Source: Treponema sp.
GTDB lineage: Bacteria; Spirochaetota; Spirochaetia; Treponematales; Breznakiellaceae
Reading direction: 5' to 3'
Assembly: GCA_031255615.1 (NCBI GenBank)
Contig: JAIRSD010000138.1
Span: forward strand, 1 to 30,338
Length of the DNA stretch: 30,338 bases
Below, in pieces: positions 11,863 to 30,338 of this stretch (the first letter of the stretch is position 1; each line of letters starts with the position of its first letter). Both the position numbers and the translations under genes were made by a program. The notes beneath the pieces were generated by a model that saw nothing but the letters and a program-made list of their open reading frames with translations, was not told where the DNA came from and ran no database searches.

Positions 11863-12068
11863 TGCCGCGCATCGAGAGTAGGTTGGGCGCATTTTTTGCG
11901 GCCCGCCGCAGGCGGGCCGTAAAAAACCGGGCTATCCGCTCCAATTCCCCGCCCCCGCCGGGGGCGGGGAATTCCGCTTCTATCCCTTGCGCGGGTAACG
12001 CTAAGCCGGCGCGGGAACCGCGCCGGCGTTTTGCCGCCTTGTGGAAAATCCGCGTTCCCGCGGATTTT
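11863..12068 (-). ncRNA. Modular hairpin element, copy A (Flavo-1-like core)
   Basis: In minus orientation this copy reads: hairpin AAAATCCGCG / CGCGGATTTT (12045-12068), a GC-rich hairpin CCGGCGCGG / CCGCGCCGG near 12006-12027, the linker GCAAGGGATAGAAGCGGAA, a 15-bp perfect inverted repeat AATTCCCCGCCCCCG (11943-11973), the linker GAGCGGATAGCCCGGT, a hairpin with T6/A6 ends and a 9-bp CGGCCCGCC core (11892-11926), then ATGCGCCC. The flank after it (GCGCCCAAC, then TCGATGCGCGGC) is also shared with copy B. It lies between the ffh 3' end and rpsP. The core resembles the Flavo-1 RNA motif as I remember it; I could not run a covariance search. It could equally be a non-transcribed repeat. Confidence 0.55.
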
Positions 12069-12226
12069 CAGCTTCCGGGATTCCCCGGGGTAAAACCCAG
12101 GCCCCCCCGGTGTCATGGACGGCCCGCCGGGAAGATCCCCCCACACCCTGCGGCGAAGGTACCCAAAGGAGACTCGGCATGCGGCTGCTTGGCCTAAAAG
12201 ACCGGATATGCGGGCGGAAGAAATTG

Positions 12227-12311
12227 ACCACGAAGGCGAAGAAGGCGCACGAAGACCGGGGATTGGAGGAGCTTTTTCATTCCTTCGTGTTCCTTGGTGC
12301 CCCTTCGTGGT
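12227..12311. repeat. Imperfect inverted repeat ACCACGAAGG / CCTTCGTGGT
   Basis: The outer arms ACCACGAAGG (12227-12236) and CCTTCGTGGT (12302-12311) are perfect complements, and further CACGAAG / CTTCGTG matches lie inside. Sequences of this kind (CCTTCGTG words in opposite orientation) are, from memory, common dispersed intergenic repeats in many phyla. It sits about 60 bp past the ffh stop and could act as a transcription end there. Confidence 0.6.
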
Positions 12312-12367
12312 TAACATTCTCGTTCCCGGTCGTTTCGCTTATCCGGTGGTTTAGTGTAAGCAAGGTA

Positions 12368-13723
12368 CTAGCGGCCCATCCGGCTCATCATTTTTTGGAG
12401 GGCCGGGCCTTGCAGGGCCTGGTTTTTCCCCATTTTGCTCATTTTTTTCATAAGAGTCCGCATTTTTTCAAAGCGTTTGAGGAGCCGGGCGACCTCCGCC
12501 ACGGAGGAACCGGAGCCCCGGGCGATTCGGGAGCGGCGGGAGGGGCCGATGATGAGGTGGTTGGCCCTTTCTTTCCGGGTCATGGAGGACAGGATGGCTT
12601 CCTGGGCTTTCAGCTCCGCCTTGTCGATGTCTTCTTCGCTTATCTGGCCCGCCATGCCGGGGATCATGTCCAGCATGGATTTGAGGGAGCCCATTTTTTT
12701 TACCGACCGGAGCTGGGAGAGCCAGTCCTCTAGGGTAAAACTTTCCTTCTCCATTTTTTTCTGGATTTCCTGGGCTTCTTTTTGATCGATGACCTGCTGG
12801 GCCTTCTCCACGAGGCTGACCACGTCCCCCATGCCCAGGATGCGGCCCGCCATCCGTTCCGGGTGGAAAGGCTCAAAGTCCTCCGGTTTTTCCCCGGTTC
12901 CCACGAATTTGAGGGCCTTGCCGGTGATGGTTTTTAGGGAGAGGGCGGCGCCGCCCCTGGTGTCGGAGTCGAATTTGGTAAGGATCACCCCGCTGAGGCC
13001 GATCTGCGCGTCGAAGGCTTTGGCGATGTCCACCGCCGCCTGGCCGGTCATGGAATCCGCCACCAGGAGGAGTTCGTCGGGGCGGGCCGCTTCTTTCAGC
13101 CGGACAAGCTCCGCCATCATGGCATCGTCTATTTGCAGCCGCCCCGCGGTGTCGATGATCAGGGTGTCCGCCATGGTCCTGCGGGCGTAATTTTCGGCCC
13201 CCCGGTACACCTTTACCACGTCGTCGGCGCCTTCCTCTTTGTAGACGGGGATCCCAACCTGGGCCCCCAGGATGGAAAGCTGTTCCATCGCGCCGGGCCG
13301 GACCAGGTCGCAGGCCGCGAGCAGGGGTTTCCGGCCTTCTTTTTTAAGGCGCAGCGCCAGTTTGGCGGCGCTGGTGGTTTTCCCGGAGCCCTGGAGCCCC
13401 AGCATAAGTATCGGGGAAATGACATCCGGCCCCCGCAGTTTCAGGCCCCCCCCGGATTCGGTCCCCAGGAAGGAGACCAGTTTATCGTGGACGATCTTGA
13501 CGAACTGCTGGTCCGGGTCTACTGAACGGAGGACCCGTTCCCCCTTGGCCTCCTCGATGGTGGCGTTCACGAAGCGGCGCACCACCCGGAGGTTCACGTC
13601 CGCCTCCAGAAGGGCCATCTTGATGGCCTCCACCGCGTCGTCGATGTTTTTTTCGGTGATCGTGGATTTCCCCGCCACAAAGCGCAGGGCATCCGAAACT
13701 TTCTGGGTTAATTTGTCGAACAT
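12368..13723 (-). CDS. ffh: Signal recognition particle protein Ffh (SRP54)
   Basis: Ffh binds signal sequences of nascent membrane proteins and 4.5S RNA and delivers ribosomes to FtsY. The 451-residue protein has the N domain (1 to about 95), the GTPase G domain with GLQGSGKTT (109-117), DTAGRLQID and TKFDSDTRGGAALS, and a C-terminal methionine-rich M domain (about 305-451) with the RNA-binding stretch GPSRRSRIARGSGSSVAEV and many methionines at the end (MRTLMKKMSKMGKNQ). It follows ndk by 27 bp on the same strand and is probably co-transcribed with it. The SRP RNA gene is not in this window as far as I can see. Confidence 0.98.
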   Translation of the reverse strand: MFDKLTQKVSDALRFVAGKSTITEKNIDDAVEAIKMALLEADVNLRVVRRFVNATIEEAKGERVLRSVDPDQQFVKIVHDKLVSFLGTESGGGLKLRGPDVISPILMLGLQGSGKTTSAAKLALRLKKEGRKPLLAACDLVRPGAMEQLSILGAQVGIPVYKEEGADDVVKVYRGAENYARRTMADTLIIDTAGRLQIDDAMMAELVRLKEAARPDELLLVADSMTGQAAVDIAKAFDAQIGLSGVILTKFDSDTRGGAALSLKTITGKALKFVGTGEKPEDFEPFHPERMAGRILGMGDVVSLVEKAQQVIDQKEAQEIQKKMEKESFTLEDWLSQLRSVKKMGSLKSMLDMIPGMAGQISEEDIDKAELKAQEAILSSMTRKERANHLIIGPSRRSRIARGSGSSVAEVARLLKRFEKMRTLMKKMSKMGKNQALQGPALQKMMSRMGR

Positions 13724-13750
13724 GGCCCTATAGTATCCCCAATGCCGGGA

Positions 13751-14194
13751 CTAGAACCAGTCCCGGTTGCCGTCCTCCCAAGGGCAGTATTCCTCGGGGC
13801 GGAAAAACAGGGCGGCCTCCCGTTCCGCGGCGGCGGGGGAATCGGAGGCGTGGACGATGTTCAGCCGGGTTTGGGCCGCGTAGTCCCCCCGGATGGTTCC
13901 CGCCGGGGCCTCCATCAGGTTGGTGGGGCCTATCATGCGGCGGACGACGGCGACCGCCTCCTCCCCTTCCAGGACCATGGCGATCACCGGGCCGGAAAGG
14001 GTGTAGTCCACCAGTTTTTCATAAAAATCCCGGCCTTTATGCGCGGCGTAGTGGGATTCCACCGTCTCCCGGCTTAAGCGCAGGAGTTTAAGGGCCGTGA
14101 TTTTCAGGCCCTTTCGTTCAAAGCGGTTCAGCACTTCTCCCGCAATCCGGCGGGGCAGGACTCCGGGTTTCAGCATGACGAAGGTCTTTTCCAT
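13751..14194 (-). CDS. ndk: Nucleoside diphosphate kinase
   Basis: Ndk transfers the gamma-phosphate of ATP to nucleoside diphosphates through a phosphohistidine. The 147-residue product starts EKTFVMLKPGVLPRRIAGEVLNRFERKG and has RMIGPTNLMEAPAGTIRGDYA followed by NIVHASDS, where His115 is the phosphorylated residue. The length fits the family. No ribosome-binding site precedes the ATG at 14192-14194; a promoter -10 box ends only 7 bp before it, so the message may be leaderless. ffh follows after 27 bp. Confidence 0.97.
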   Translation of the reverse strand: MEKTFVMLKPGVLPRRIAGEVLNRFERKGLKITALKLLRLSRETVESHYAAHKGRDFYEKLVDYTLSGPVIAMVLEGEEAVAVVRRMIGPTNLMEAPAGTIRGDYAAQTRLNIVHASDSPAAAEREAALFFRPEEYCPWEDGNRDWF

Positions 14195-14201
14195 GGGCTT
14201 T

Positions 14202-14230
14202 ATTATACCACAGGAATTTTCCCATGACTA
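14202..14230 (-). promoter_or_regulatory. Sigma-70-type promoter of ndk, very close to the ATG
   Basis: On the minus strand TAGTCA (14230-14225), a 17-bp spacer and TATAAT (14207-14202) form a promoter, with TG one base before the -10 (extended -10). Transcription would begin about 6-7 bp after the -10, at or next to the ndk start codon (14194). Confidence 0.7.
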
Positions 14231-14251
14231 ACTGAATGGTCGTTCAATAGT

Positions 14252-14281
14252 GTTGTTCAGAAACTTCAGTTTCTGGATAAC
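14252..14281 (+). repeat. GTTCAGAAAC-family hairpin, copy 3
   Basis: The arms GTTGTTCAGAAAC and GTTTCTGGATAAC pair over 13 positions on the plus strand if two G-U wobbles are allowed, around TTCA. It is related to the copies at 3304-3333 and 4107-4128. It lies upstream of the ndk promoter and just before hairpin element copy B, with no T-run after it. Confidence 0.6.
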
Positions 14282-14296
14282 GCTATTCATCGGGTT

Positions 14297-14806
14297 TTGG
14301 CGCGGGGCGTAAAAATCCGGAAGCCGCGAATCCGCAGGGACGCGCCGGCAGGGATGCCGAACCAAAAGGCTTGCGCCTTTTGGTTTTGCGGAGTTCACGG
14401 GGCGCTGCCCCACGAACTCCATACAGCGAAGGCGCAAAACGGCAGGGATGCCGGCATGGAGGCCGGTTGCATCCCACCATACAGGGGTTGGTGCGCGGAG
14501 CGCGCCAACCCCGAAGGCGCGAAACGGCAGGGACGCGCCGGCATGGAGGCCGGCTGTATCCACCATACCAGGAGTTGGTACGCGGAGTGCACCGACTCCG
14601 AAGGCGAACATCCGCAGGGATGCCGGCATGGAGGCCGGTTGCATCCCACCATACAGGGGTTGGTGCGTGGAGCGCACCAACCCCGAAGGCGCAAAACGGC
14701 AGGGATGCGCCGGCATGGATGCCGGCTGTATCCACCATACCAGGAGTTGGTGCGCAGAGCGCGCCGACTCCGAAGGCGAACATCCGCAGGGATGCGGATG
14801 TTCGCC
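14297..14806 (+). repeat. Hairpin string of element copy B, with a 172-bp tandem duplication
   Basis: A run of strong hairpins precedes the core of copy B. Examples are AACCAAAAGGC / GCCTTTTGGTT (14360-14385), GGAGTTC / GAACTCC around a GGGGC/GCCCC stem (near 14390-14420), GGGGTTGGTGCG-type stems, GGAGTTGG / CCGACTCC-type stems, and CGAACATCCGCA / TGCGGATGTTCG (14777-14804). About 14439-14610 is repeated at about 14611-14782 (period 172 bp). The two repeats differ inside stems in ways that largely keep base pairing. The linkers GCAGGGATGCCGAACC, GGTTTTGCGGAGTT and AACTCCATACAG also occur, with small changes, in copy C. Open frames on both strands here are by-products of the GC-rich repeats. 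Confidence 0.7.
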
Positions 14807-14917
14807 CGCGCAAGGGATAGGAGCGGAATTTTTGCGAAGCAAAAATTGGAGCGGATAGCCCGGTTTTTTGCGGCGGAGCCGCAAAAAATGCGCCCAACAT
14901 ATATTCGATGCGCGGCG
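14807..14917 (+). ncRNA. Modular hairpin element, copy B core (Flavo-1-like)
   Basis: The order is the linker GCAAGGGATAGGAGCGGAA, hairpin AATTTTTGC-GAA-GCAAAAATT (14827-14847), linker GGAGCGGATAGCCCGG, hairpin TTTTTTGCGGC-GGA-GCCGCAAAAAA (14864-14888), then TGCGCCC and the shared flank ending TCGATGCGCGGC. Linkers match copies A, C, D and E closely while the stems do not. It ends about 180 bp upstream of the PTS operon promoter and is oriented with that operon. The RNA-family call is from memory of Flavo-1. Confidence 0.58.
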
Positions 14918-15010
14918 TTTTCCCAACCGGGATGAGGATGGACAGGGCGCGGTATCCTGTTGTACGATAAAGTGCTAAAAAACCCTGAGAAATCCGCGTT
15001 TTTCCCGGTA

Positions 15011-15057
15011 CTTGTTCAATAATCGGCCCGTTTTGAACAAGCGGGTTATTGATTTTT
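15011..15057 (+). promoter_or_regulatory. Overlapping alternative inverted repeats upstream of the PTS promoter
   Basis: CTTGTTCAA (15011-15019) and TTGAACAAG (15033-15041) are perfect complements. TCAATAA..CCCG (15016-15030) and CGGGTTATTGA (15042-15052) form a second stem that shares bases with the first and is followed by TTTTT. The two cannot form together. This could be an upstream terminator with an alternative fold, or a dyad operator for the regulator encoded in the operon. It lies about 40 bp upstream of the promoter, so it does not lie in the operon's own transcript. Confidence 0.4.
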
Positions 15058-15095
15058 GGCACAGGGCGGATATGCCAATTCAGTATATGTTTTTC

Positions 15096-15124
15096 TTGCG
15101 CCCCCTATGACCCGCCCGTATAAT
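15096..15124 (+). promoter_or_regulatory. Sigma-70-type promoter of the PTS operon
   Basis: TTGCGC (15096-15101), a 17-bp spacer and a perfect TATAAT (15119-15124) precede the first operon gene by about 50 bp. The leader then carries AGGAGG (15163-15168), five bases before the ATG at 15174. Confidence 0.75.
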
Positions 15125-15173
15125 GACCCCGATATTGTTTCAACATTCTGGTAAAAGTAAGTAGGAGGAAAAC

Positions 15174-16565
15174 ATGAAGCAAACGGTCCAGAGAGTGGGG
15201 CGGGCGCTTTCCGCCATGGTCATGCCCAATTTGGGCGCCTTTATCGCCTGGGGGCTTATTACGGCCTTATTTATCCCCACCGGCTGGCTGCCCAATGAAA
15301 AATTGGGAAACATGGTCGGTCCCATGCTGAGCTATCTCTTGCCGCTCCTTATCGGTTATACCGGAGGCAAGTTGACGGGCGGCGGGGTCCGGGGCGGCGT
15401 AGTCGGTTCAATCGCTACTATAGGCGTTATCATGGGGGCGAGCATCCCCATGTTCCTGGGCGCCATGATAGCGGGCCCCCTGGGCGGTATCTGCATCAAG
15501 AAATTTGACGAAGCGGTAGAAGGCAAGGTTCCCGCCGGTTTCGAGATGCTGGTAAACAATTTTTCCGCGGGGATCATCGGTTGTATCCTTTCGATTATCT
15601 GCTATCTGGGTATCGGCCCGGTGGCGGAAGGAATCACCAACGCCTTCGGCGCCGGGGTCGGCTGGCTTGTCAGCCACAAATTGCTCCCCTTCGCATCGAT
15701 TATTGTTGAACCGGCGAAGGTCCTCTTCCTGAACAACGCGATTAACCACGGCGTCTTTACCCCCCTCGGCACCCAGCAGGCCCAGGAAATCGGGCGGTCG
15801 ATTTATTACATGATTGAATCGAACCCCGGCCCTGGTCTTGGTCTGTTGTTCGCCTATTGTCTGGTGGGAAAAGGCAGCGCCAAGAGCAGCGCGCCCGGCG
15901 CGGCGATCATCCACTTCCTCGGCGGCATCCACGAGATTTATTTCCCCTATGTGCTGATGAATCCTGTTCTGATTCTCGCCATGATGGGCGGCGGTTTTAC
16001 CGGCGTTCTGGTGTTGAGCATTTTCGGCGGCGGACTTATCGCCCCGGCTTCTCCGGGTTCCATTTTTGCCGAGCTGATGATGACCCCCAGGGGCGCGTAC
16101 ATTCCCAACATTTTGGGTATCCTGGCGGGGGGCGGCGTGTCGTTCTTCCTGTCAATGATCCTGCTTAAGGCTTTTGGAAAGGACGATGCGGATCTTGAAT
16201 CGGCCCAGGCTCAAACCAGGGCGAACAAGGCTGAATCCAAGGGTACTTCCGTGGAAGATACAAAGGCCGCCTGGGATTCTTCCTCCTCGGTAAAGAAGAT
16301 CATCTTTGCCTGCGACGCCGGCATGGGTTCGAGCGCCATGGGGGCTACCAAGCTGCGGAAGAAGATACTGGCCGCGGGGATTACGAATATTACCGTTATC
16401 CATTCGCCGGTGAACGAAGTGCCCGCCGATGCGGACGTTATAGTCTGCCATAAAGAGCTGGGGGCCCGGGCCCATGACGCCAATCCCCGTGCCCGTCTTG
16501 TTACGATAACGGATTTCCTGAACGCGCCGGAATACGATGAGTTGGTTTCCAAGCTGAAAAAATGA
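15174..16565 (+). CDS. mtlA: PTS mannitol-type transporter, EIICB component
   Basis: This 463-residue membrane protein imports and phosphorylates a hexitol, probably mannitol. The IIC part (about 1-345) is strongly hydrophobic with family signatures NNAINHGVFTPLG (187-199) and GGIHEIYFPYV (250-260). A charged linker (about 346-372) leads to a IIB domain with the phosphorylation site KKIIFACDAGMGSSAMGA, Cys380. There is no fused IIA domain; that is encoded separately downstream. AGGAGG precedes the ATG with ideal spacing. It opens an operon with its own HPr, regulator, EIIA, kinase, dehydrogenase and Enzyme I. The substrate could be another hexitol, because the cluster lacks mannitol-1-phosphate 5-dehydrogenase. 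Confidence 0.94.
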   Translation: MKQTVQRVGRALSAMVMPNLGAFIAWGLITALFIPTGWLPNEKLGNMVGPMLSYLLPLLIGYTGGKLTGGGVRGGVVGSIATIGVIMGASIPMFLGAMIAGPLGGICIKKFDEAVEGKVPAGFEMLVNNFSAGIIGCILSIICYLGIGPVAEGITNAFGAGVGWLVSHKLLPFASIIVEPAKVLFLNNAINHGVFTPLGTQQAQEIGRSIYYMIESNPGPGLGLLFAYCLVGKGSAKSSAPGAAIIHFLGGIHEIYFPYVLMNPVLILAMMGGGFTGVLVLSIFGGGLIAPASPGSIFAELMMTPRGAYIPNILGILAGGGVSFFLSMILLKAFGKDDADLESAQAQTRANKAESKGTSVEDTKAAWDSSSSVKKIIFACDAGMGSSAMGATKLRKKILAAGITNITVIHSPVNEVPADADVIVCHKELGARAHDANPRARLVTITDFLNAPEYDELVSKLKK

Positions 16566-16575
16566 GGGGGCGCTT

Positions 16576-16833
16576 GTGCAGGAATTTTCGTATACGATAA
16601 CGGATCCGAACGGGATCCATGCGCGGCCTGCGGGATTGTTCGTGCAGAAGATGCAGGAATTTAAAAGCAGCGTCATGGTGAACCGGGATGATCAAAGCGC
16701 GGATGCCAAGAAGCTGATCGCCTTGATGAAGCTGCGTCTTAAATGCGGACAGACTTTTACGGTAAAGGCTGAAGGCGAAGATGAGGCGGCGGCTATTGAG
16801 GCTGCACGGGATTTCCTAACCGCAAACCTGTAG
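16576..16833 (+). CDS. ptsH: HPr phosphocarrier protein
   Basis: The 85-residue protein carries phosphate from Enzyme I to EIIA. NGIHARPAG places the phosphorylated His15 at the canonical position. The residue equivalent to the regulatory Ser46 of Gram-positive HPr is Lys46 (ADAKKLIALM), so phosphorylation by an HPr kinase is not expected. The start is a GTG at 16576-16578, five bases after GAGGGGG, and the gene begins 10 bp after the EIICB stop. Placement inside a single hexitol operon suggests a dedicated carrier, but it could also be the cell's only HPr. Confidence 0.93.
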   Translation: MQEFSYTITDPNGIHARPAGLFVQKMQEFKSSVMVNRDDQSADAKKLIALMKLRLKCGQTFTVKAEGEDEAAAIEAARDFLTANL

Positions 16834-16858
16834 CGTTCTGCGAAGGGGGGCGGCGGCG

Positions 16859-18901
16859 GTGTGCGGTAATGTGCCGATGCGAAATCTCTCTCCCCGGCTC
16901 TTGCGGATACTTGACCTGTTGGTCCATTCCCCTGAGCCGTTGAAGATTGATGTCCTGTCGGCGGCATTGAACACAAGCCGCCGGACCGTTTTTCGCGAAC
17001 TGGAAAACGCCGGTCCGGTATTGGCCGAGTTTCAAACGTCCTTGATTTCCATCCCCGGAAAGGGCATAAGTTTTTCCGGGGACGGGAAATCCCGTCAAAA
17101 ACTGTGTGAATCTCTGGCCGGCTACAGCCAGCCGCCCGTTTCCAGGCGGGAACGCCTGCTCCGTCTGCTGATTGAATGTATCGCCAATGCCGGCAAAGTT
17201 AAAAAACTGTTTTATTACGCGAATGTTCTGGGGGTAAGCGAATCCACGGTAAGCAATGATCTTGGGGAACTTGAGGCATGGCTTTCCGGGCGGGGCGTTA
17301 CCGTTACCCGTAAAAGCGGTTTGGGCGTTTCCTGCGCCGGAACCGAGGAGGCCCTGCGTACCGCCCTGGTAAGCCGGTTCATGCTCGACGGGGATACCGG
17401 CGGAAAATCGTATACCGCCGTGTTTGATTTTCCCGGCGAGGACATAGAAACGGGGGTGCGGGAAATGCTGCGCAGGAAGGCCGGCGTGATTGACTGGATG
17501 ACCCCCGAATCGTTTTGCCTGATTACCGTTTATCTTATCGTAACGGCGGATCGCTTGAGACGGGGAAAGGTTATTAGCGGCGGCGACAGGCCGGTGGGGG
17601 AGTTCCAAAGGGCCGTGGCCGAAGAACTGGCGGGGGAGATGAAAAACCGGTTTTCCCTCCTCATGCCGGAACCGGAACGGCAGGCCCTCGCGTTGTGGAT
17701 TCAGTCCTGCCGCTCGAAACAGGAAAGCCCGCTCGAACCGGTGTCGGCGGATCAGCAGAAGCTCATCGCGCATCTTACCAATCAGATGATAGATCGCTTT
17801 GATCCTCCCGCCGCCGCCATTCTTAAAACCAACGAGCAATTGACGCGCCTGTTATCCCGGCATTTGGAATCGGCGATTCCCCGGATGAAAAGCGGGATAG
17901 AACTTCCCAATCCCCTTGAGGCGGAACTTATAAAAAACTATCCGGAGGAATACGAAAAGACCCTTGGGGCGGTAACGGTCCTTGAGGATTATGTGGGAGT
18001 CCCCGTGTCGTCGAACGAGATTTCGTTTATTATGATACATTTCCTGGCGGCCCTTGCCGTTCTGGGGGATCAAAACACCAGGCGGCGGGTGCTGCGGGCG
18101 GGCATCGTGTGCATGCTCGGTATCGGGACCTCCTATATGCTGGCGTACCAGGTGCGCAAGCGTTTTAAGGGGGAACTGGAAGTCGAAGTATCCGGCTGCG
18201 ACGACCAGGATTCGTGGACCAATGTCGATTTTCTTATTTCCACCATCCCGCTGGAGGAAACGGATAAACCCTTTGTCTGGGTACAGACCCTGTTGGGAGA
18301 AGATGATTATCGTAAAATCCAGGAAACCATCGACAACTTCGCCTTTACCAAACGGGACGCGGAACAGCCGGTCCGCTCGGTTCCCCTGGAAAAACGTCTT
18401 GACATCCTTGTCGAACTATTCACCCAATCCCGATCCCTGCTGGACAGCTTCGCCGTTGAAACGGTCAAGGCGGACTGCTCTTTTGAGGAGCTTGTCCGTT
18501 TTGCCGCTCTGCGCTTTGCGCCTGAAAACCCGGAGTCGGTCCGCCGCGCCCTTACGGCCAGAGAAGCCGTTGTGAGCCAGGTTATCGGCGAAATGGGGAT
18601 AGTCCTGCTGCATACGCGGGCGGCCGGCAGTACGGCCCCGGTGTTCGCGGTAATCGTCCCGAAGGGAGGGGAATTTACCCAGACATATTTTAAAAACACA
18701 AAAAGCTGCGTGCTTATGATATTGCCCGAGAAGGCCCCCCGGGAAATATCCGAATTGATGGGGGGAATTTCCAGCGCGTTAATCGATCTGCCCCTTTTTC
18801 TTGAGTCGATTCGCGTTGGAAACCGGGAGCTTATACAGGCGTTTCTTGAAAGAGAAATCTCGGAAATTCTCGCCTTGTGCAGCGGCGAGAAATTAACATA
18901 A
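16859..18901 (+). CDS. PRD-containing transcription regulator (MtlR/BglG-type activator)
   Basis: The 680-residue protein has two helix-turn-helix regions (about 10-60 and 105-140, the latter VLGVSESTVSNDLGELE), then PRD1 (about 195-290), PRD2 (about 295-405), an EIIB-like domain (about 412-495, GIVCMLGIGTS with Cys418) and an EIIA-like domain (about 510-680, LLHTRAAGS with His585). This is the layout of MtlR-type activators controlled by PTS phosphorylation. PRD1 has Tyr and Trp where conserved histidines normally sit, while PRD2 keeps His335 and His394, so control probably acts through PRD2 and the EII-like domains. The start may be the GTG at 16859, nine bases after GAAGGGGGG, or the ATG at 16877. 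It lies between the HPr and EIIA genes and probably activates this operon. Confidence 0.92.
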   Translation: MCGNVPMRNLSPRLLRILDLLVHSPEPLKIDVLSAALNTSRRTVFRELENAGPVLAEFQTSLISIPGKGISFSGDGKSRQKLCESLAGYSQPPVSRRERLLRLLIECIANAGKVKKLFYYANVLGVSESTVSNDLGELEAWLSGRGVTVTRKSGLGVSCAGTEEALRTALVSRFMLDGDTGGKSYTAVFDFPGEDIETGVREMLRRKAGVIDWMTPESFCLITVYLIVTADRLRRGKVISGGDRPVGEFQRAVAEELAGEMKNRFSLLMPEPERQALALWIQSCRSKQESPLEPVSADQQKLIAHLTNQMIDRFDPPAAAILKTNEQLTRLLSRHLESAIPRMKSGIELPNPLEAELIKNYPEEYEKTLGAVTVLEDYVGVPVSSNEISFIMIHFLAALAVLGDQNTRRRVLRAGIVCMLGIGTSYMLAYQVRKRFKGELEVEVSGCDDQDSWTNVDFLISTIPLEETDKPFVWVQTLLGEDDYRKIQETIDNFAFTKRDAEQPVRSVPLEKRLDILVELFTQSRSLLDSFAVETVKADCSFEELVRFAALRFAPENPESVRRALTAREAVVSQVIGEMGIVLLHTRAAGSTAPVFAVIVPKGGEFTQTYFKNTKSCVLMILPEKAPREISELMGGISSALIDLPLFLESIRVGNRELIQAFLEREISEILALCSGEKLT

Positions 18902-18921
18902 TTTAAGGTAAGGAGTACAAT

Positions 18922-20309: not shown

Positions 20310-20330
20310 CAGCACAAAGAGGAGTTATCC

Positions 20331-23218: not shown

Positions 23219-23255
23219 GGGACTAAAACACAGCAACGCTGTTTCGCCGTTTTTT

Positions 23256-23320: not shown

Positions 23321-23413
23321 GGGCGCATCCCCGCCTCCGGCGGGGACCGGGCTATCCGCTCCAATTCCCCGCCCCCGCCGGGGGCGGGGAATTCCGCTTC
23401 TATCCCTTGCGCG
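23321..23413 (-). ncRNA. Modular hairpin element, copy C core (Flavo-1-like)
   Basis: In minus orientation this copy reads the linker GCAAGGGATAGAAGCGGAA, an AATTCCCCGCCCCCG inverted repeat (about 23363-23393) identical to that of copy A, the linker GAGCGGATAGCCCGGT, a short hairpin CCCCGCC-GGA-GGCGGGG (23329-23345), then ATGCGCCC. The second stem is unrelated in sequence to that of A, B or E. It points towards the 3' end of the PTS operon. Confidence 0.57.
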
Positions 23414-23585: not shown

Positions 23586-23665
23586 ACAGGGAACGTACCC
23601 CTGCCGGCGCGGCTTCCTCCTTCCCTGCTCCCCGCCCGGGACGGACCGGGGCCGTGCCGGGAACC

Positions 23666-23693
23666 GCCGGGCTGTCCGCTAAAATCCCTCCCC
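23666..23693 (-). repeat. Degenerate remnant of the modular element core (C')
   Basis: The plus-strand text CCGGGCTGTCCGCTAAAATCC matches the core linker read on this strand (CCGGGCTATCCGCT) with one change, but the flanking hairpins are eroded. Directly after it are two 13-bp tandem units GGCAAAAATGCCC and GGCAAAAATGCCT (23705-23730), each a small GGCA/TGCC hairpin. The rest of the stretch up to 23810 shows nothing further except the next gene's ribosome-binding site (GGGGAGG). Confidence 0.45.
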
Positions 23694-23810
23694 GGCAAAG
23701 GCCTGGCAAAAATGCCCGGCAAAAATGCCTGGTAAAACGGGGGAAACCAGGTTATGCTGGCCCATACAGAGCCGCCGTAGGGCCGGCGATCATACCGCGG
23801 GGAGGCGTTC

Positions 23811-24548
23811 ATGGATATTTCGTTGCAGCTTTATTCGATTAAGGAAGAGGCCCAGGAGAATTTTGAACAGGCCCTGGCATTGACCCGGCAGGCCGGGTAC
23901 CAGGGGGTGGAATTCGCCGGGTACTTCGGCAAAAGCCCGGACCAGATGAAGGCCCTGCTGGACCGGCGCCAGCTTAAGCCGGTAAGCACCCACCTGGGGA
24001 TCCCCCGGCTGAAGGAAGCCCTGGACGAGGAAATCGCCTACGCCAGGGCCCTGGGTTACGGGCTTTTAGTCTGCCCCTTCCTGAAGGGGGACAGCGAGGC
24101 GGATTATATCGAGGGGGCCCGGTTCCTGGAAGAATGCGCCCAAAAGGCCGCCCAGGCGGGGCTGGGCTTTGGCTACCACAACCACGCCCACGAATTTGTC
24201 AAATACGGCGGCAGATACGCCCAGGACATCATCCTGGAACAGGCCCCCACCGTGAAATTTGAACCGGACCTGTTCTGGATAGCCCTGGGCGGGGTAGATC
24301 CCCTTGCCTACCTGGAACCCCTGGCAAAGGCCGGTCGGATCTGCGCCGTCCACGCCAAGGAATTGGCAAAAACGGGGAAGGAAAACGTCTATGTGGGGGA
24401 AGGGAAGATCGACTTTGCCGCCATTGCCAAACTCTGCCCCCCCGACCGGTACCCCTGGATCGTCGAGCAGGAGGAGTACCACAGCGATCACCTGGACGGC
24501 ATCTCCAAAAGTTACCGGGGCCTGCGGGGGATCTTCGATTCCCTGTAG
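23811..24548 (+). CDS. Sugar phosphate isomerase/epimerase-like TIM-barrel protein
   Basis: The 245-residue protein belongs to the xylose isomerase-like / AP endonuclease 2 TIM-barrel superfamily. It starts MDISLQLYSIKEEAQENFEQAL, with GYQGVEFAGYFGKSPDQMKALL and VSTHLGI. The probable metal ligands lie in GYHNHAHEF, KFEPDLFWIALGG, CAVHAKE and WIVEQEEY (Glu, Asp, His, Glu). Such proteins isomerise or epimerise keto-sugars or inositol-type substrates; the substrate cannot be told. GGGGAGG precedes the ATG. It converges on the xylanase gene with a 12-bp gap, so the pair need not be functionally linked, although both suit plant-polysaccharide sugars. Confidence 0.87.
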   Translation: MDISLQLYSIKEEAQENFEQALALTRQAGYQGVEFAGYFGKSPDQMKALLDRRQLKPVSTHLGIPRLKEALDEEIAYARALGYGLLVCPFLKGDSEADYIEGARFLEECAQKAAQAGLGFGYHNHAHEFVKYGGRYAQDIILEQAPTVKFEPDLFWIALGGVDPLAYLEPLAKAGRICAVHAKELAKTGKENVYVGEGKIDFAAIAKLCPPDRYPWIVEQEEYHSDHLDGISKSYRGLRGIFDSL

Positions 24549-24560
24549 CCCCGGCGGTTC

Positions 24561-26090
24561 CTAGAATCTAAAGCCCCAGCTTTCCTCCAGACGGCGGAGC
24601 CGCTGGACTCCTTCCTTGGGCGTTAGATCCCGGTGGACAATGCCGGCGGCGGGAACGTAGCTGGCGTTGTCCCAGACGCTCCACCAGGTAAGGGCCTCCA
24701 CCTCCGGGCGGGCGTAGCTGAGGGTGTAAAAATCCTCGATCCAGTCCGCCTGGACCCGCTCGCTCCAGTCCATCTCGTGCCAAAGGCCCTTGTACATATA
24801 GCGGAGGCAGTAGATGTCCCCCTCCGTGGTGGAGGGGAGCAGATCCTGCTCGTGGGAGGGGACTCCCAGTTCCGTGATGTGGTAGGGCTTTCCAAAGACC
24901 TTAAAGCGGTCGTAGAGCTTGTCGATGGCCAGCATATCCCGGGAGGGGCAGTACAACTGCATACCGATAATGTCGTAATCGCAGCGGGCCTCCTCCAGCC
25001 TCCTGATGTAGGAGTAGGGGACCATGTTCCGCTCATTCACCAGCCCCCACTGGACCCGGCCGTCGGCGGCGTTTTCCCCGAACATGAAGCAGGTGTTCAC
25101 CACGGTCTTGCAGTCCGGCCCGGCGTCGCGGACCGCCCGGGCGCAGGCGGAGGTCATGGCGATAAGCTCCTCCTGTTTCATCATCCAGATATTGCACCAG
25201 TCATGGGCCTCGTTGATGATGTCGTAGCGCTGGATTCGCCCGGCAAAATGCCGCACCCGGTCGCCGATCACCCGGTCTATCTCCCGGCGCATGCTGCCGT
25301 CCCCCCATTTCAGGTCCGCCGCCCAGGGGGGCATCCCCGCGGTATGGGCCCACCACAGGGGGTGTCCCTTGGTAGCAATGCCGGACTCCTCAAAGGCCCC
25401 CTGGAGTCTTTCCAGGGTGGGGTAATCGGGCTTTCCCTTTTCCGGTTCCACCCGGGCCAGGTAGAAGGGGAGGGTGGCGTAGTTAAAGAGCCGGTCGAAG
25501 ATTTCCTTTAGGCCCGGCTGTTCCCTGTAGGGGTACTCAACGCCCGCGCAGCCAAAGAGGAAGCCCTCCCGTTTACCCTGCTCCGCGATACGGGCCCGGG
25601 CCCGCTCCACCACCGCCAGGTCCCCGGCCCAGAGCCCCGCCGCCAGGGCGGTGAGGTTCAGCTCCGCCGCCTTTGCGGGCCCCGCCCGTTCCGCCAGGCC
25701 CAGCAGGGCGGCGGCGTCCGCCAGCATAGACTGGGTCTTTACCGAGGGGCTGAATCCCCCGGCCTTCCCCGCGCTCCCCCCGATAAGCTCCTCCACGTCC
25801 CGCAGGCGGCACTCCGCCGCCTCCCGGACAAAGTCGATGGTTCCCCCTTCCGAGTAGCCCCGGCCCTTGTTGTCCGCGCTGACCCACACGAAGCCGTAGC
25901 CGGGGACCGCCAGTTTGGCCTGGAGAACCACCCGATCTCCGGGGATGTTCATGGACACCAGACCCTCCCGGGAAACGGTGTTGTTCCGGCGGTAGGGCAC
26001 ATAGTCCTGGTCCGCGGCAAAGAGGGTGGCAATCTCATCCCGGCTTACCGGGCCGCCCTGGGGATTCAGAATCCGCACCTTCACATTCAT
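24561..26090 (-). CDS. GH10 endo-1,4-beta-xylanase without signal peptide
   Basis: The 509-residue protein has an N-terminal beta-rich domain (1 to about 90), a helical stretch (about 90-175) and a glycoside hydrolase family 10 domain (about 180-500). Signatures are KGHPLWWAHT, RYDIINEAHDW with the acid/base Glu294, and YHITELGVPS with the nucleophile Glu407, plus the substrate-binding WWSVWDNASYV. The enzyme should cleave beta-1,4-xylan or xylo-oligosaccharides. I chose the ATG at 26088-26090 because AGGAGG lies just upstream. The protein then starts MNVKVRILNPQGG, with no signal peptide or lipobox, so it is probably cytoplasmic and acts on imported oligosaccharides. The longer in-frame extension to 26405 runs through a hairpin element and is not real coding sequence. 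Confidence 0.93.
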   Translation of the reverse strand: MNVKVRILNPQGGPVSRDEIATLFAADQDYVPYRRNNTVSREGLVSMNIPGDRVVLQAKLAVPGYGFVWVSADNKGRGYSEGGTIDFVREAAECRLRDVEELIGGSAGKAGGFSPSVKTQSMLADAAALLGLAERAGPAKAAELNLTALAAGLWAGDLAVVERARARIAEQGKREGFLFGCAGVEYPYREQPGLKEIFDRLFNYATLPFYLARVEPEKGKPDYPTLERLQGAFEESGIATKGHPLWWAHTAGMPPWAADLKWGDGSMRREIDRVIGDRVRHFAGRIQRYDIINEAHDWCNIWMMKQEELIAMTSACARAVRDAGPDCKTVVNTCFMFGENAADGRVQWGLVNERNMVPYSYIRRLEEARCDYDIIGMQLYCPSRDMLAIDKLYDRFKVFGKPYHITELGVPSHEQDLLPSTTEGDIYCLRYMYKGLWHEMDWSERVQADWIEDFYTLSYARPEVEALTWWSVWDNASYVPAAGIVHRDLTPKEGVQRLRRLEESWGFRF

Positions 26091-26166
26091 AAGACCTCCT
26101 CGTCTCTCCGGGCCCCGCGTCCACCGGGGCCTTGCCGTCAGGATACACCGGAATTCGCCGGCGGTG

Positions 26167-26333
26167 AACCGAAGGGCCGGCCCAAAACGCTTCGCGTTTT
26201 GGTTTTTTCGGTCTTTGAGGCGAAGCCCCAAAGACCCGCCCGGCCGGGCCGGCAGGAGGCCGGCTGTTTCCAAATATGAGTTTTGCGCGGCAAAACTCAT
26301 AGGCTGAACATCCGCATCCATGCGGATGTTCAG
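26167..26333 (+). repeat. Hairpin string of element copy D
   Basis: Consecutive hairpins are CCAAAACGC-TTC-GCGTTTTGG (26182-26202), GTCTTTGAGGC / GCCCCAAAGAC (26211-26235, one mismatch), a GGCCGG-rich stem near 26240-26262, ATGAGTTTTGC-GCG-GCAAAACTCAT (26276-26300) and TGAACATCCGCA / TGCGGATGTTCA (26305-26332). The last has the same stem as copy B apart from its terminal pair, and a different loop. The upstream part of this intergenic region (26091-26166) shows nothing clear. Confidence 0.65.
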
Positions 26334-26424
26334 CCGCGCAAGGGATAGGAGCGGAATAAAAACCCGCAGGGTTTTTGTTAGAGCGGATAGCCCGGTCCCC
26401 GGCATGGATGCCGGGGATGCGCCC
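26334..26424 (+). ncRNA. Modular hairpin element, copy D core (Flavo-1-like)
   Basis: The order is the linker GCAAGGGATAGGAGCGGAA, hairpin AAAAACCC-GCA-GGGTTTTT (26358-26376), linker GAGCGGATAGCCCGGT, hairpin CCCCGGCA-TGGA-TGCCGGGG (26397-26416), then ATGCGCCC. Both stems differ from those of copies A-C, while the first matches the stem of the truncated copy E. It ends 100 bp upstream of the chemotaxis receptor gene, in the same orientation. The remaining 100 bp has AT-rich sequence that may hold the receptor promoter, but I cannot fix one. Confidence 0.57.
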
Positions 26425-26524
26425 TTAAAATTCGCTTTTACCCCTTTATTTTACACTTTCTATCGAAAAGAATTTCCTTACGAACGCTGGAAACGGTTGC
26501 CTGAATTCAGGTAAAATAATACCT

Positions 26525-28441
26525 ATGAAAGCCGAGAAGTCGCCCCTTCCTTCGGCGGGTTCGCCCCCTCTGCCGGGCGCCCGGGGGGGCCGGAAGGACG
26601 GGGCTGAGCGGAGTCTGCCCTTTTCCCGGTCGCTGAAGGCCAGGTTTCTTGTTTTCTTCATACTTTTTATTGCCGGGCTGCTGGCTTTAATCACCTTTCT
26701 GAATATTTCCAGGACGATACATATCACTACCGCCATGTTTGCCGAACAGGGGATCGGGATTGTGCGGCAGGCGCAGGAGATAGTGGCGGACGGGGACCGC
26801 TTTGAAAGGCTGGCCGGCAGTCTGGACCCGGAGGACCCCTATTACGAGGAAACCCGGCGGCGGCTTCTGGAATTGAAGGAGAATACGGTCGCGCTTTATC
26901 TGTACACCATGTCCGTGGTGGAGGGTTCGACTTCCCTTTTTATCATTGACGGCAGCGCCCCGCCGGACGACGAGGAGCTTTTTTCCCCGCTGGGCTCGAT
27001 GGAGGACGTTTCCGGCTACGATTCGGCCTTTATGGAGACCTGGCGGGCCGGGGAGATTCGGGCGAGCGATCTTGTGTTCCAGGACGGCTGGGGCTGGCTG
27101 GTGTCGATCTACGGGCCGATACTGAACTCCCGGGGGGAGATGGTAGGGATTATCGGCTGCGATTTCGGCGCCCAGCGGCTTTTTGACGAGCTGCGGGAGG
27201 AGGTTGTCCGCCAGGTTCTTCTGGACCTGGCGCTTATCGTCCTGGGCTGCTTCTTTGTGCTGTTCTTTATGCGGATGATCTTTTCCCGCCTTGCCGGGAT
27301 TGGCGTGATTCTGAAGGAAATTTCCGAAGGGGAGGGGGATCTGACTACCCGCATCCAGATTGCCAGGATGGATGAGATCGGCGTCATGGCCCACTACTTC
27401 AACCTGGCGCTGGATAAAATAAAGAGTCTGGTGATCACCATTAGGGAAGAGAGCATCAAGCTCTACGGCATTGGGAACGATCTTATGGGCAACATGATCG
27501 AAACCGCTTCGGCGATGGAACAGATCACCGGCAATATCCAGCGGATGAAGGCGCAGACCCTTAAGCAGAACGCCAGCGTTGCCGAAACCTCCGCCACCAT
27601 GGATCAGCTTTCCCAAAGCATCCTCCGGTTGAACGGCTATGTGGAAAGCCAGGCGGAGAGTATGTCCCAGTCCTCCAGCGCCATCGAGGAAATGCTGGCC
27701 AATATCGAGAGCGTTACGACGACCCTGGTCAGGAACGGGGAGAACATGGGAAATCTGACCGTCGCGTCGGAGATTGGCCGCGCGAGTCTGGGGACGGTGA
27801 CCACCGACGTGCGGGAGATCGCCCAGGAGTCCGAGGGCTTGATGGAGATTAACCTGGTCATCCAGACGATTGCGGCCCAGACGAATCTTTTGGCCATGAA
27901 CGCCGCCATAGAGGCGGCCCACGCCGGGGACGCGGGGAGGGGTTTCGCCGTGGTGGCGGACGAGATTCGTAAATTGGCGGAAAACGCCGGGGCGCAGTCC
28001 AAAACCATTGGGGAGGTGCTGAAAAAGATCAAGGCCTCCATAAACAAGATTACCAATTCGGCGAACACGGTATTGGAAAAATTCCAGGCTATAGACGATT
28101 CGGTGCAGACCGTGTCGGAGCAGGCGGCGGATATCCGGCTGGCCATGGAGGAGCAGGGGGAGGGGAGCAAGCAGATACTGGAAGCCATCGCGCGGCTTAA
28201 CGAGGTAACCCAGCATGTGAAACAGGGTTCCCTGGAAATGAACGAGGACAGCCGGCAGGTAATCCAGGAAAGCAAGAATCTTGAGATAGTGGCCCAGGAA
28301 GTTGCCAAAGAAATGGATGAAATGGCCGAGGGGGCGGATCTGGTCAACACGGCGGTAGACCGGGTAAACGGTATATCCGCCGAAAACAGGGAACTCTTGG
28401 GAACTTTGGTGGAAGCTGTATCCAAATTTAAAGTAGAATAA
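26525..28441 (+). CDS. Methyl-accepting chemotaxis protein
   Basis: The 638-residue receptor has a 39-residue basic cytoplasmic N-terminus, a transmembrane helix (about 40-61), a periplasmic sensor domain of about 170 residues (probably Cache-like, LNSRGEMVGIIGCDFG near its end), a second transmembrane helix (about 231-253), a HAMP domain (about 253-305) and a long signalling coiled coil. The conserved tip is IAAQTNLLAMNAAIEAAHAGDAGRGFAVVADEIRKLAENA, where CheA and CheW bind. There is no C-terminal pentapeptide tether for CheR/CheB; the end is SKFKVE. The ATG has no good ribosome-binding site; a short inverted repeat AGGTA/TACCT lies directly before it. The ligand cannot be read from sequence. 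Confidence 0.95.
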   Translation: MKAEKSPLPSAGSPPLPGARGGRKDGAERSLPFSRSLKARFLVFFILFIAGLLALITFLNISRTIHITTAMFAEQGIGIVRQAQEIVADGDRFERLAGSLDPEDPYYEETRRRLLELKENTVALYLYTMSVVEGSTSLFIIDGSAPPDDEELFSPLGSMEDVSGYDSAFMETWRAGEIRASDLVFQDGWGWLVSIYGPILNSRGEMVGIIGCDFGAQRLFDELREEVVRQVLLDLALIVLGCFFVLFFMRMIFSRLAGIGVILKEISEGEGDLTTRIQIARMDEIGVMAHYFNLALDKIKSLVITIREESIKLYGIGNDLMGNMIETASAMEQITGNIQRMKAQTLKQNASVAETSATMDQLSQSILRLNGYVESQAESMSQSSSAIEEMLANIESVTTTLVRNGENMGNLTVASEIGRASLGTVTTDVREIAQESEGLMEINLVIQTIAAQTNLLAMNAAIEAAHAGDAGRGFAVVADEIRKLAENAGAQSKTIGEVLKKIKASINKITNSANTVLEKFQAIDDSVQTVSEQAADIRLAMEEQGEGSKQILEAIARLNEVTQHVKQGSLEMNEDSRQVIQESKNLEIVAQEVAKEMDEMAEGADLVNTAVDRVNGISAENRELLGTLVEAVSKFKVE

Positions 28442-28537
28442 ATTTACCTGCCGCATCCGCCGGCGGTTTGAGGGCCGGTCGATGTTCCGGGGTCGCCGGG
28501 ACGGCGGGGGAATTCTGGTTAAAGGACGGTGAACGGA

Positions 28538-30202
28538 ATGGCTGACATGGTATTACAGGACGGGTTGGACCCCGAATTAGCCGCCATATTAAAAACCAGC
28601 GAGCTGAAGAATTCGGAGGAGATGCCGGATTTTTCCACTCTTTTCGGAGAGGAAGGCGGGGCGCCGGAGGTTCCGGGCAAGGGGGATGGGGAGGAGAATT
28701 CCCCGCCGGAGGGAGAGGCCCTGGGGGGCAGTTTCCCGGAAATAACCAAGAAATTCGAAACAACCCCCCATGCCTTTTTTACGGACCCCAATTACTATAA
28801 AGCCGCCCTTTCCGGCGAGGGGGACAGCGCCACCCGGATTCATGGCATTCTCCAGAAATACCTGAACTGCAAGGATCCCAAGGATCGGAGCGTGTTCCGC
28901 CAGCAGTTCATTACCGCCTATTGGGATTTCCTGGGCAGCGTGGCAAGAAAATCCGGGGGAAAGCTGCCCTCCGCCAAACGTTTCCTCCTCCGTTTCGGCA
29001 TCCTCCATCCCGTCTTCCTTGGCCAGGATACCAGGGATTTCTTTTCCAAACTGGTGGTGGAAGACGAATTGGGGCAGCCCATATACTATCTGGACGAATG
29101 GCTTAAAAACGTGGGGCTTGGCAGCATCCAGCCCTCCACCACCGACGAAGCGCCGGCGGCCAAGGGCAACAACAGCGCCCGGTTCCAGCAGCTTCTGGAA
29201 CGGGCCAAGGGAAAGCTGGAAGGAAACACGGGGATCCTCAAGGCGAAAGTCAGCCAGCGGCAGGAAATGGAGCGGCTTTTGAAGGACAAGGTGGATATTC
29301 TTTTAACCCACGATTCCGTGGAAAGCGGGCTGCATATCAGCTCCGTCTACAACGAAGGCCAGAAAAGGGCCTGCCAGGATATCCAGGAATTGCTTAAGGG
29401 CCTGTTGAGGACGGACAGGGAACTTGAAATTTCCCTGCGGGATTACCGCCAGGCGGAAGATGATGTAAAAAGTATCCAGAGCAAAATGGCGGAGGAAGGG
29501 AACGCCGCGTCGGTGGACACCGGGGCCATGGGCGCCGAATTCGACACCATCCGCCAGATGGTAAAGATGACCGTGGGCCGCAAGGGCAACCACTTTCCGA
29601 TGCTTACCAGCGAATATTTTCACAGCGGCCCCAACGACACCGGTTTTCGGGAAAACGTCGTCTCCATCCTGACGGAAATCGAAAAAATCGACCCGGAGTG
29701 CTTTTACCGGGTCTACAAAAACCGGAACAACCGGATCGTCCCCTACGTGATCCTTATCCCCAGTTACGGGGACATCGGCTTCTGCTGGGAACCCTTTTCC
29801 CGCCACAACCGCGCCACCAGCCGGGGCCGGATCGTCATCCCCATGTACCCCCGGAATCTCCATATCGCCGTCCTCTCCGCCGTGGGGGACCTGCGCTGGC
29901 AGGTCGCCAAAGAAAAAGCCTCCTACTACTGGATGGAGGAGGGCCTCACGGGGAATTACTACCAATGGTTCCAAAAAATGAAACTCAAAGGCAACATCAA
30001 AGACTTCTTTGTCCAGGATTACATCCAGTGGATGACCAAGGAAAGCGAAGGCACCCAAAAACTGCACAAGGAAATCCGGGGCGTCTTCTGGCGCTTCATG
30101 CCCTTCGCCCAGCCCGTCAAGGAAAAGCTGAAAAACCGCAACCTGATTTACCAGGAACTGTACCAGCGGGATCTCAACCGCGCCATGTCCGACGGGTATT
30201 GA
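28538..30202 (+). CDS. Large unknown cytoplasmic protein (554 aa)
   Basis: I do not recognise a family. Residues about 1-75 are acidic and low complexity, probably disordered. A helical segment (about 80-175) contains FFTDPNYYKAALSG and FRQQFITAYWDFLGSVARKSG. A coiled-coil-like region (about 205-325) has LLERAKGKLEGNTGILKAKVSQRQEMERLLKDK. The C-terminal part (about 340-554) looks globular and aromatic-rich: YRVYKNRNNRIVPYVILIPSYGDIGFCWEPF, RGRIVIPMYPRNLHIAVLSAVGDLRWQVAKEKASYYWMEEG. I see no signal peptide or membrane helix. The start may be the ATG at 28538 or the in-frame GTG at 28529; AAAGGA lies upstream of both. It follows the chemotaxis receptor by about 100 bp on the same strand. The even codon use and the length leave little doubt that it is a real gene. 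Confidence 0.85.
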   Translation: MADMVLQDGLDPELAAILKTSELKNSEEMPDFSTLFGEEGGAPEVPGKGDGEENSPPEGEALGGSFPEITKKFETTPHAFFTDPNYYKAALSGEGDSATRIHGILQKYLNCKDPKDRSVFRQQFITAYWDFLGSVARKSGGKLPSAKRFLLRFGILHPVFLGQDTRDFFSKLVVEDELGQPIYYLDEWLKNVGLGSIQPSTTDEAPAAKGNNSARFQQLLERAKGKLEGNTGILKAKVSQRQEMERLLKDKVDILLTHDSVESGLHISSVYNEGQKRACQDIQELLKGLLRTDRELEISLRDYRQAEDDVKSIQSKMAEEGNAASVDTGAMGAEFDTIRQMVKMTVGRKGNHFPMLTSEYFHSGPNDTGFRENVVSILTEIEKIDPECFYRVYKNRNNRIVPYVILIPSYGDIGFCWEPFSRHNRATSRGRIVIPMYPRNLHIAVLSAVGDLRWQVAKEKASYYWMEEGLTGNYYQWFQKMKLKGNIKDFFVQDYIQWMTKESEGTQKLHKEIRGVFWRFMPFAQPVKEKLKNRNLIYQELYQRDLNRAMSDGY

Positions 30203-30219
30203 GCCCCAGGCCGCGTAAA

Positions 30220-30269
30220 AAAAGGACCCGGAAAAAGGAGCGTCATAACCCTGCGCCGGGTTTCCTTTT
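30220..30269 (+). terminator. Terminator-like hairpin after the last gene
   Basis: AAAAGGACCCGG (30220-30231) pairs with CCGGGTTTCCTTTT (30256-30269) with a 2-nt bulge, and the 3' arm ends in TTTT. It lies 18 bp past the stop codon. Confidence 0.5.
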
Positions 30270-30338
30270 GGGCGCATTTTTTGCGGCTGCGCCGCAAAAA
30301 ACCGGGCTATCCGCTCTAACAAAAACCCTGCGGGTTTT
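30270..30338 (-). ncRNA. Modular hairpin element, copy E (truncated by window end)
   Basis: Read on the plus strand it shows GGGCGCAT, hairpin TTTTTTGCGGC-TGC-GCCGCAAAAAA (30277-30301), the linker ACCGGGCTATCCGCTCTAAC, and the first part of an AAAAACCC / GGGTTTT hairpin, where the window ends. It is therefore a minus-strand copy of the same core. Its first stem is close to that of copy B and its second to that of copy D, so stem sequences are reassorted between copies. Confidence 0.55.

Follow-up and report, generated by a model that had tools for sequence, protein, structure and literature searches.

A dispersed Flavo-1-like element of treponemes shares a folded core with sites on phages and conjugative plasmids

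The window analyzed here is a 30,338-nucleotide stretch of Treponema sp. DNA (GenBank assembly GCA_031255615.1, contig JAIRSD010000138.1, positions 1-30,338 of the forward strand). It contains five copies of an element in which two hairpins of variable sequence are set between fixed linkers. The copies have the words GCGCAAGGGATAGRAGCGG, AGCGGATAGCCCGG and ATGCGCCC in common. The nearest relatives of the window's TrmD (9 loci) are in metagenome-assembled genomes (MAGs) titled Treponema, Spirochaetaceae or Spirochaetia, which we take from the isolate names to be termite-gut bacteria. We refined the coordinates of the copies using cmsearch and R1, a covariance model built from 35 treponeme copies. 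Copies B and D are among the training rows of R1; A, C and E are not.

Copy A, 11885-11992, - strand: R1 65.2 bits, E 5e-12, outside the training set; closing helix, linker 1, stem 1 (the same as in copy C), linker 2, stem 2, closing helix, CC
Copy B, 14808-14895, + strand: R1 73.6 bits, training member; directly 3' of a perfect hairpin that ends a TD-2-like array
Copy C, 23321-23412, - strand: R1 71.8 bits, E 2e-13, outside the training set
Copy D, 26336-26424, + strand: R1 71.8 bits, training member
Copy E, 30270-30338, - strand: R1 match truncated on its 5' side, 27.2 bits, E 4.8e-4, outside the training set

An initial annotation of this DNA had described five cores with fixed linkers, and all were present, four of them in full. 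Copy E is cut by the end of the window and its 5' part lies beyond; the rest of stem 1, linker 2, stem 2 and the 3' end are visible. The reassortment of stems between copies, also described earlier, held as well. Stem 1 is identical in A and C while their stems 2 are different, and copy E joins a visible stem 1 like that of D to a stem 2 with the base of B's and another loop. As the annotation had it, the differing stems are still near-perfect inverted repeats. Folded as DNA, the linker strand of each of copies A-D was better than 200 of 200 shuffles (z -4.6 to -5.0). The ends of the element pair too, GCGCA with TGCGC, and the whole element is therefore one closed structure. This closing helix, GCGNN/NNCGC in general form, had been missed and is added here.

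At Rfam cut-offs, Flavo-1 (RF01705) matched only copy A (11921-12000, 42.1 bits against a gathering cut-off of 42). Copies B-E were absent from the Flavo-1 matches at the cut-off. Membership in the Flavo-1 group, suggested in the initial annotation, is supported, and the accession given there is correct.

Pairing in the linkers and change in the stems

The consensus of the element in treponemes is GCGCAAGGGATWGNAGCGG, stem 1, AGCGGAWAGCCCGG, stem 2, ATGCGCCC. Stem 1 keeps a lineage-specific base and has a variable tip; stem 2 is more variable. We found that the linkers build one structure, consisting of the closing helix GCGNN/NNCGC, a GGG/CCC helix, two covarying pairs and purine-rich internal loops. 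The internal-loop core, GAUNGNAGCGG / AGCGGANAGC, closed by a variable helix, was present in 136 distinct treponeme copies.

The linker pairs covary. The treponeme rows of the covariation set were found with patterns tolerating few changes only. Among the 136 copies the linker pair x:y was A:T in 88, T:A in 46, C:G in 1 and G:C in 1, and it was never unpaired; in a wider set of 223 copies it was unpaired in 5 and T.G in 3. Other linker pairs also changed together in the 136 copies: C:G to T:A in 3 (with T.G in 2 and C.A in 0), G:C to A:T in 1, and G:C to C:G in 3 within the GGG/CCC helix. Pairing of GGG with CCC had been proposed at the outset and is supported. For C16, the 223-copy set had 10 unpaired (one of them C.A) and 3 T.G; for G7 it had 6 unpaired. 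On viral contigs the closing helix was changed on both sides (GCGTG/CACGC, GCGAT/ATCGC, GCGAC/GTCGC and GCGTT/AACGC).

To quantify pairing we used 51 hand-curated, distinct cores of 33 nt. Of 510 cells, 98.8% were paired, compared to a shuffled mean of 84.2 (sd 0.9), and no shuffle was as high. There were 61 cells changed on both sides, compared to 13.4 (sd 2.7) in shuffles. The covariation signal was lost when the partner was shifted by 1-3 columns. In 23 distinct phage and plasmid rows, in an alignment fitted to the model, there were 53 both-side changes against 14.7 when shuffled. Some of the plasmid rows had been required beforehand to pair at the closing helix; a second set without this requirement, false picks omitted, gave the same pairs. 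The structure and the shared core are firm. The pairing and covariation of the cores also bear out the initial proposal that the stems are under strong structural constraint and little sequence constraint.

The mismatches left in the stems bear on which strand is folded. Among 3788 pairs of distinct stems we found 85 isolated mismatches with paired neighbors, of which 27 were G.T, 12 A.C and 46 other. For the total of 27 to 12 the one-sided p is 0.012, from stems that are not independent of one another; G.T exceeded A.C both in stem 1 (11 to 7) and in stem 2 (16 to 5). This excess suggests that folding takes place on the linker-bearing strand, whether of RNA or of single-stranded DNA, and argues for selection on one folded strand rather than blind copying of arms. 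G.T makes up 0.7% of the 3788 pairs, a share that is probably low for an RNA, so some rewriting of arms may still occur.

In its strict form, such rewriting would occur at the DNA level by template switching from arm to arm, and compensatory changes would arise without structural selection. Stem tips do change in blocks while the bases stay, the elements of a duplicated pair in genome G111 (loci L057 and L128) are identical except at the tip of stem 2, and isolated mismatches are rare (the 85 noted above). However, the linker pairs, which are flanked by fixed unpaired purines, also covary, and they are not easily made one by one by arm copying. Given this and the excess of G.T over A.C, we consider template switching very unlikely as the explanation. 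The initial annotation had offered, as one possibility, a repeat whose way of spreading also rewrites its stems, and this is supported in part. The repeat is dispersed (see below); the stem mismatches point to selection on one folded strand rather than to copying between arms.

Some copies had unusual stems or additions. One copy in locus L167 (genome G005) has the foot of stem 1 replaced by an extra hairpin. In contigs of G147 (e.g., L190, at 2080) the linker is of a variant form, GATTGGAGGGG, and stem 1 is long and branched. In L011, L022, L024, L133 and L114 a further module directly follows the element, with a shared tail behind a hairpin such as ATCTCCGTATGGAGAT; in L024 and L133 the tail is of the GCGTAYAACC...CCTTACAGCA type.

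Dispersal and orientation in treponemes

We found that the element is patchy in treponemes, with up to 338 copies per genome. RF01705 was searched against 145 genomes of G005's family (E <= 0.001, with at most 30 candidates scored per genome). Matches were present in 59 genomes, and in 40 they were over the cut-off. Sites with the linker-1 pattern, allowing up to 2 mismatches, numbered 338 in G054, 238 in G056, 141 in G025, 60 in G147, 56 in G139, 41 in G052, 40 in G111, 37 in G018, 28 in G084, 27 in G135, 24 in G075, 15 in G042, 11 in G128, 9 in G080 and 6 in G076. The reversed pattern, as a control in 15 genomes, gave 0-1 sites per strand, indicating that the linker-1 sites are not due to chance. 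A linker-2-like word followed 58 of 58 linker-1 sites on the fetched long contigs of G054, G056 and G139.

The flanks of the copies were unlike in most of the pairs compared, and therefore the element disperses. At locus L169 of G021, a genome without a Flavo-1 match, the element and the neighboring repeats are absent, leaving 26 bp rather than 782 bp between the matched parts. This congeneric locus falls short of a clean empty site for the element alone. A near-perfect hairpin ended within 4 nt of the 5' end of the element in 59 of 216 copies, compared to 5 of 207 at a control position; directly downstream of the element a hairpin was found in only 3 of 195. TD-2 (RF03162) abutted the element in 5 of 20 loci scanned and at copy D. 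Based on these hairpins and TD-2 matches at the 5' end, TD-2 and the element form composites. The window contains the following:

TD-2 match (RF03162), 26248-26339, + strand: 60.5 bits against a cut-off of 48.7; overlaps the first bases of copy D at its 3' end
TD-2-like array, 14427-14796, no strand assigned: located upstream of copy B; units of ~87 bp, fixed in their linkers and variable in their stems, with 4.3 copies at a period of 87 by Tandem Repeats Finder

The likeness of the array to TD-2 was judged by eye, and the array is absent from the Rfam matches at the cut-off. Two other kinds of repeat lie in the window. Positions 1929-2300, and more broadly ~1-2300, hold GC-rich tandem repeats (a 187-bp unit in 2.0 copies, and units of 19 and 36 bp), and several long open frames overlap within ~1-2300. 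Positions 12225-12320 hold an inverted repeat of the ACCACGAAGGCGAAGAAGG type; similar CACGAAG/CTTCGTG repeats are found in another treponeme (L072, 440-1040).

High-copy dispersal into unrelated flanks, the congeneric locus lacking the element with its neighbors, and the chaining with TD-2 hairpins are what might be expected of a non-autonomous mobile repeat of the REP or MITE type. In such a repeat a transposase would recognize the folded strand, and structure would be kept for mobility only. However, Y1 transposases (PF01797) did not clearly track the element. They were found in 24 of 35 carriers tested (of the 59) and in 11 of 23 non-carriers tested, an unclear association, and none was found at E <= 0.001 in G067 and G025, which have many copies. 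A RAYT/Y1 transposase was rejected as the partner because of this lack of a clear association. Judged by gene layout, without a protein family scan, there was no obvious transposase between neighboring copies. Nor did a transposon with Flavo-1 ends find support: what lies between closely spaced inverted pairs looks like ordinary genes or spacers, again without a protein family scan.

Neighboring copies in the window alternate in orientation (A-, B+, C-, D+, E-). We rejected alternation as a rule after checking long contigs. Neighboring full copies there were opposite in 30 pairs and the same in 10, on contigs many of which had been chosen for such pairs; in pairs not seen beforehand, by the author's own sorting, 11 or 12 were opposite and 9 the same. 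The excess of opposite pairs is due to the choice of contigs and to assemblies that break on the 5' side of the element.

We found that the copies have no orientation relative to genes. For the 136 copies we took simple open reading frames that were 120 aa or longer and no more than 500 bp away. Upstream genes were + in 46 cases and - in 47, and downstream genes were + in 61 and - in 57. Where both flanks had a gene, the pairs were ++ in 23, -- in 25, +- in 18 and -+ in 14. This argues against an RNA function. Rfam files the family as a structured RNA, so that the element would be a small RNA or a cis element whose transcript folds and binds a protein or ligand. The strong covariation fits such an RNA, as do the purine-rich internal loops, which are like those of many RNAs, and the preference for G.T over A.C; Flavo-1 was listed as an RNA in 2010 (PMC2864571). 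The absence of orientation speaks against it, as do the patchy presence (59 of 145 genomes) at up to 338 copies and the small share of G.T in the stems. As reported in a transcriptome study of Flavobacterium psychrophilum, Flavo-1 matches are sense or antisense within transcribed regions, and many are outside them (PMC9723704).

The core on phages and conjugative plasmids

The core is also found outside treponemes. IMG/VR contigs were scanned twice, yielding 16 and 21 stretches, and many of these match the short patterns by chance. Of 14 viral-contig loci scanned, 6 passed the Rfam Flavo-1 cut-off; five of these matched R1 at E <= 1.3e-7, and the sixth (L254) only at E 0.086. Other viral loci have, by eye, a stem 1 of ~100-300 nt, or a shorter form of the element on GC-rich contigs. 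In viral contigs L249, L250, L255 and L257, stem 1 is well over 100 nt with a common inner hairpin, GAATACTATTGACA...TGTCAATTGTATTG (for L257, in the part examined). The shorter form matches plasmids: 184 records with one query and 1574 with another, 1390 of the latter predicted to be conjugative.

A blastn search with one treponeme copy against plasmids and phages gave no match, and covariance models were therefore needed. R1, searched over 314,987 bases, found sites on both annotated phages (best E 1e-6) and in 7 of 17 plasmid loci (15 matches at E 7e-4 to 0.03). A second model, R2, was built from 25 hits on plasmids, phages and phage-like contigs. R2 matched window copies A-D at E 2e-7 to 5e-5, all 17 plasmid loci, and the named plasmids R46, F and R388. 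In a control of 18 loci not fetched for the element (155,760 bases) it gave one match, at E 0.32. No Rfam family reached its cut-off in the six plasmid loci tested. A full-text literature search found no description of the core on plasmids, and the sole literature match to four 13-letter core words concerns Helicobacter PCR.

We found that the element keeps to one strand on plasmids. The plasmid set comprised the 17 loci, taken from two match lists, and R46, F and R388. At E <= 0.5, R2 gave 44 matches in the 20 loci, 42 on + and 2 on -, with one strand per locus. As landmarks of the leading region we used ssb, psiB, ardA or antirestriction, DUF932, radC and TrfB genes. The element was opposite to the landmarks in 17 of 17 loci showing any; no landmark is present in L292, L295 and L302. 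Additional copies on these plasmids, all in the direction of the query match, and the sites on R46, F and R388 are observations free of the way the loci were turned (see below). On R46 (L304), degenerate forms of the core (23791-23880 and 26296-26385) are inside repeats of 655 bp that are 87% identical and belong to the IncN leading region; these are perhaps the CUP repeats.

On F, the leading genes are on + and both elements, of 82 nt each (58091-58172 and 63479-63560), on -. Both elements are inside 559-bp duplicated segments (89% identical) located upstream of ssb and of ygeA/ygeB-type genes, where Frpo2 and Frpo1 are described. According to one report, expression of the F leading genes, with the exception of ygfA, comes from the incoming strand, by implication their template (PMC9849209). 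A second reports that anti-defense, methyltransferase and SSB gene families of the leading region have that orientation only (PMC11541004). With the leading genes on + and the incoming strand as their template, the folded form is on the incoming strand. When folded as DNA, the F element next to ssb had a z of -2.6 for the transferred strand, with 2 of 200 shuffles equally good, and a z of -0.1 for the opposite strand. For plasmids, action of the site as single-stranded DNA is well supported.

These results bear on two of the alternatives. In the plasmid sites the fold belongs to the strand opposite to the leading-gene mRNAs. With copies lying about 50:50 relative to genes in treponemes, and with hundreds per genome in a patchy distribution, the structured-RNA branch of the initial annotation is unsupported, and we consider an RNA improbable. 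The same core on phages and conjugative plasmids looks more like a contact for a conserved host protein than like a structure kept for mobility, and such a mobile repeat seems to us an unlikely explanation.

A single-strand site and its relation to known systems

The best explanation, to which we give close to an even chance, is that the element is a site acting as folded single-stranded DNA, on the linker strand, and that in treponemes it is a dispersed repeat. More tentatively, Flavo-1 may be, instead of an RNA, a single-strand DNA fold found across phyla, with an invariant internal-loop core and free stems, that is read by a conserved host protein. As part of the same proposal, conjugative plasmids (F included) and phages would use the fold on incoming or replicating single strands, and spirochaetes would carry hundreds of dispersed copies of it.

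The fixed linkers form one rod in which GCGNN/NNCGC is followed by GGG/CCC, a U-A pair and a W-W pair, with symmetric internal loops where G and A are opposed. A cellular protein probably recognizes this rod. Stems 1 and 2 would need only to close, and so their sequence could drift. On conjugative plasmids the site is on the strand entering the recipient, and on F it is next to the single-strand promoters described for the leading region. Its likeliest job there would be the loading of a protein of replication or transcription and assistance in initiating the complementary strand, as a site of the single-strand initiation (ssi) type might; priming or loading of replication proteins appears the most likely role, and one that the window copies may have in common with the plasmid sites. 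In treponemes, and in Bacteroidetes by the Rfam record, the site would have turned into a dispersed multi-copy repeat, probably via single-stranded intermediates.

Several observations weigh against a single-strand DNA site. In the window, the complementary strands of copies A-D likewise folded better than every shuffle (z -4.2 to -5.6), which is inevitable for inverted repeats. On treponeme contigs the strand of the element showed no bias relative to GC skew (27 same, 23 opposite). With no skew bias and complementary strands that fold nearly as well, the treponeme copies show no single-strand role. Both strands of the Microcystis phage carry copies; in the Sphingopyxis phage two copies share a strand, and a weak, partial match (E 0.17) lies on the opposite one. 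In 10 of the 17 plasmid loci R1 gave no match at E <= 1, and on R46, F and R388 none at E <= 2; all of these depend on R2, whose training rows came from the first hits. The copies on R46 are degenerate, having lost the GGGAT part (R2 E 0.0002 to 0.18). The first 17 plasmid loci had been turned so that the query match was +, which covers 14 of the 17 informative loci. Several loci are relatives (IncN types), so that shared descent inflates the strand count, and since L291 is typed mobilizable and L301 non-mobilizable, the leading region in these two is inferred from genes alone. A PriA-type AAGCGG word, reminiscent of primosome sites (literature searches brought up no paper on it), is in the treponeme and phage copies and absent from the plasmid form; the link to the primosome therefore fails as evidence and was dropped. 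We know of no binding, priming or transfer experiment on the element.

Flavo-1 has been listed as an RNA of unknown function since 2010. Its core is now linked to a strand-specific site beside the Frpo regions of F, and this brings the question into a tractable laboratory system. The link suggests a single-strand DNA signal common to spirochaetes, Bacteroidetes, proteobacterial plasmids and phages. It is also a warning that covariation alone is no proof of RNA.

The element resembles several known systems. Flavo-1 (RF01705) has the same linker words, internal-loop layout and position of stem 1, and copy A is over its cut-off. However, the 76-position Rfam model stops before stem 2 and the closing helix, and the evidence here favors DNA over RNA. 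TD-2 RNA (RF03162) also has fixed linkers and variable hairpins and is chained to the 5' end of the element in treponemes, but its linkers are different and most copies of the element have no TD-2 match beside them. The element itself fails the TD-2 cut-off: the TD-2 match upstream of copy D overlaps only its first bases. REP/REPIN elements are likewise dispersed intergenic hairpin repeats; a difference is that no clear link of the element with Y1 (RAYT-type) transposases was found. Integron attC sites resemble it in that structure is kept, sequence is free and one folded strand is used; a difference is that the closing helix of the element varies.

Frpo and ssi sites resemble the plasmid relatives of the element in being folded on the transferred strand of the leading region. 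According to one report, Frpo is a 328-bp region that makes RNA primers and, in vitro, starts complementary-strand synthesis (PMC7690428). In another, Frpo is described as a stem-loop that rebuilds -10 and -35 boxes (PMC9849209). By eye, without a promoter scan of the stems, no fixed boxes of this kind were evident in the element, because its stem sequences differ freely between copies. In contrast to Frpo, the element combines free stem sequences with a conserved internal-loop core, which on F sits at the gene-distal end of the duplicated segment.

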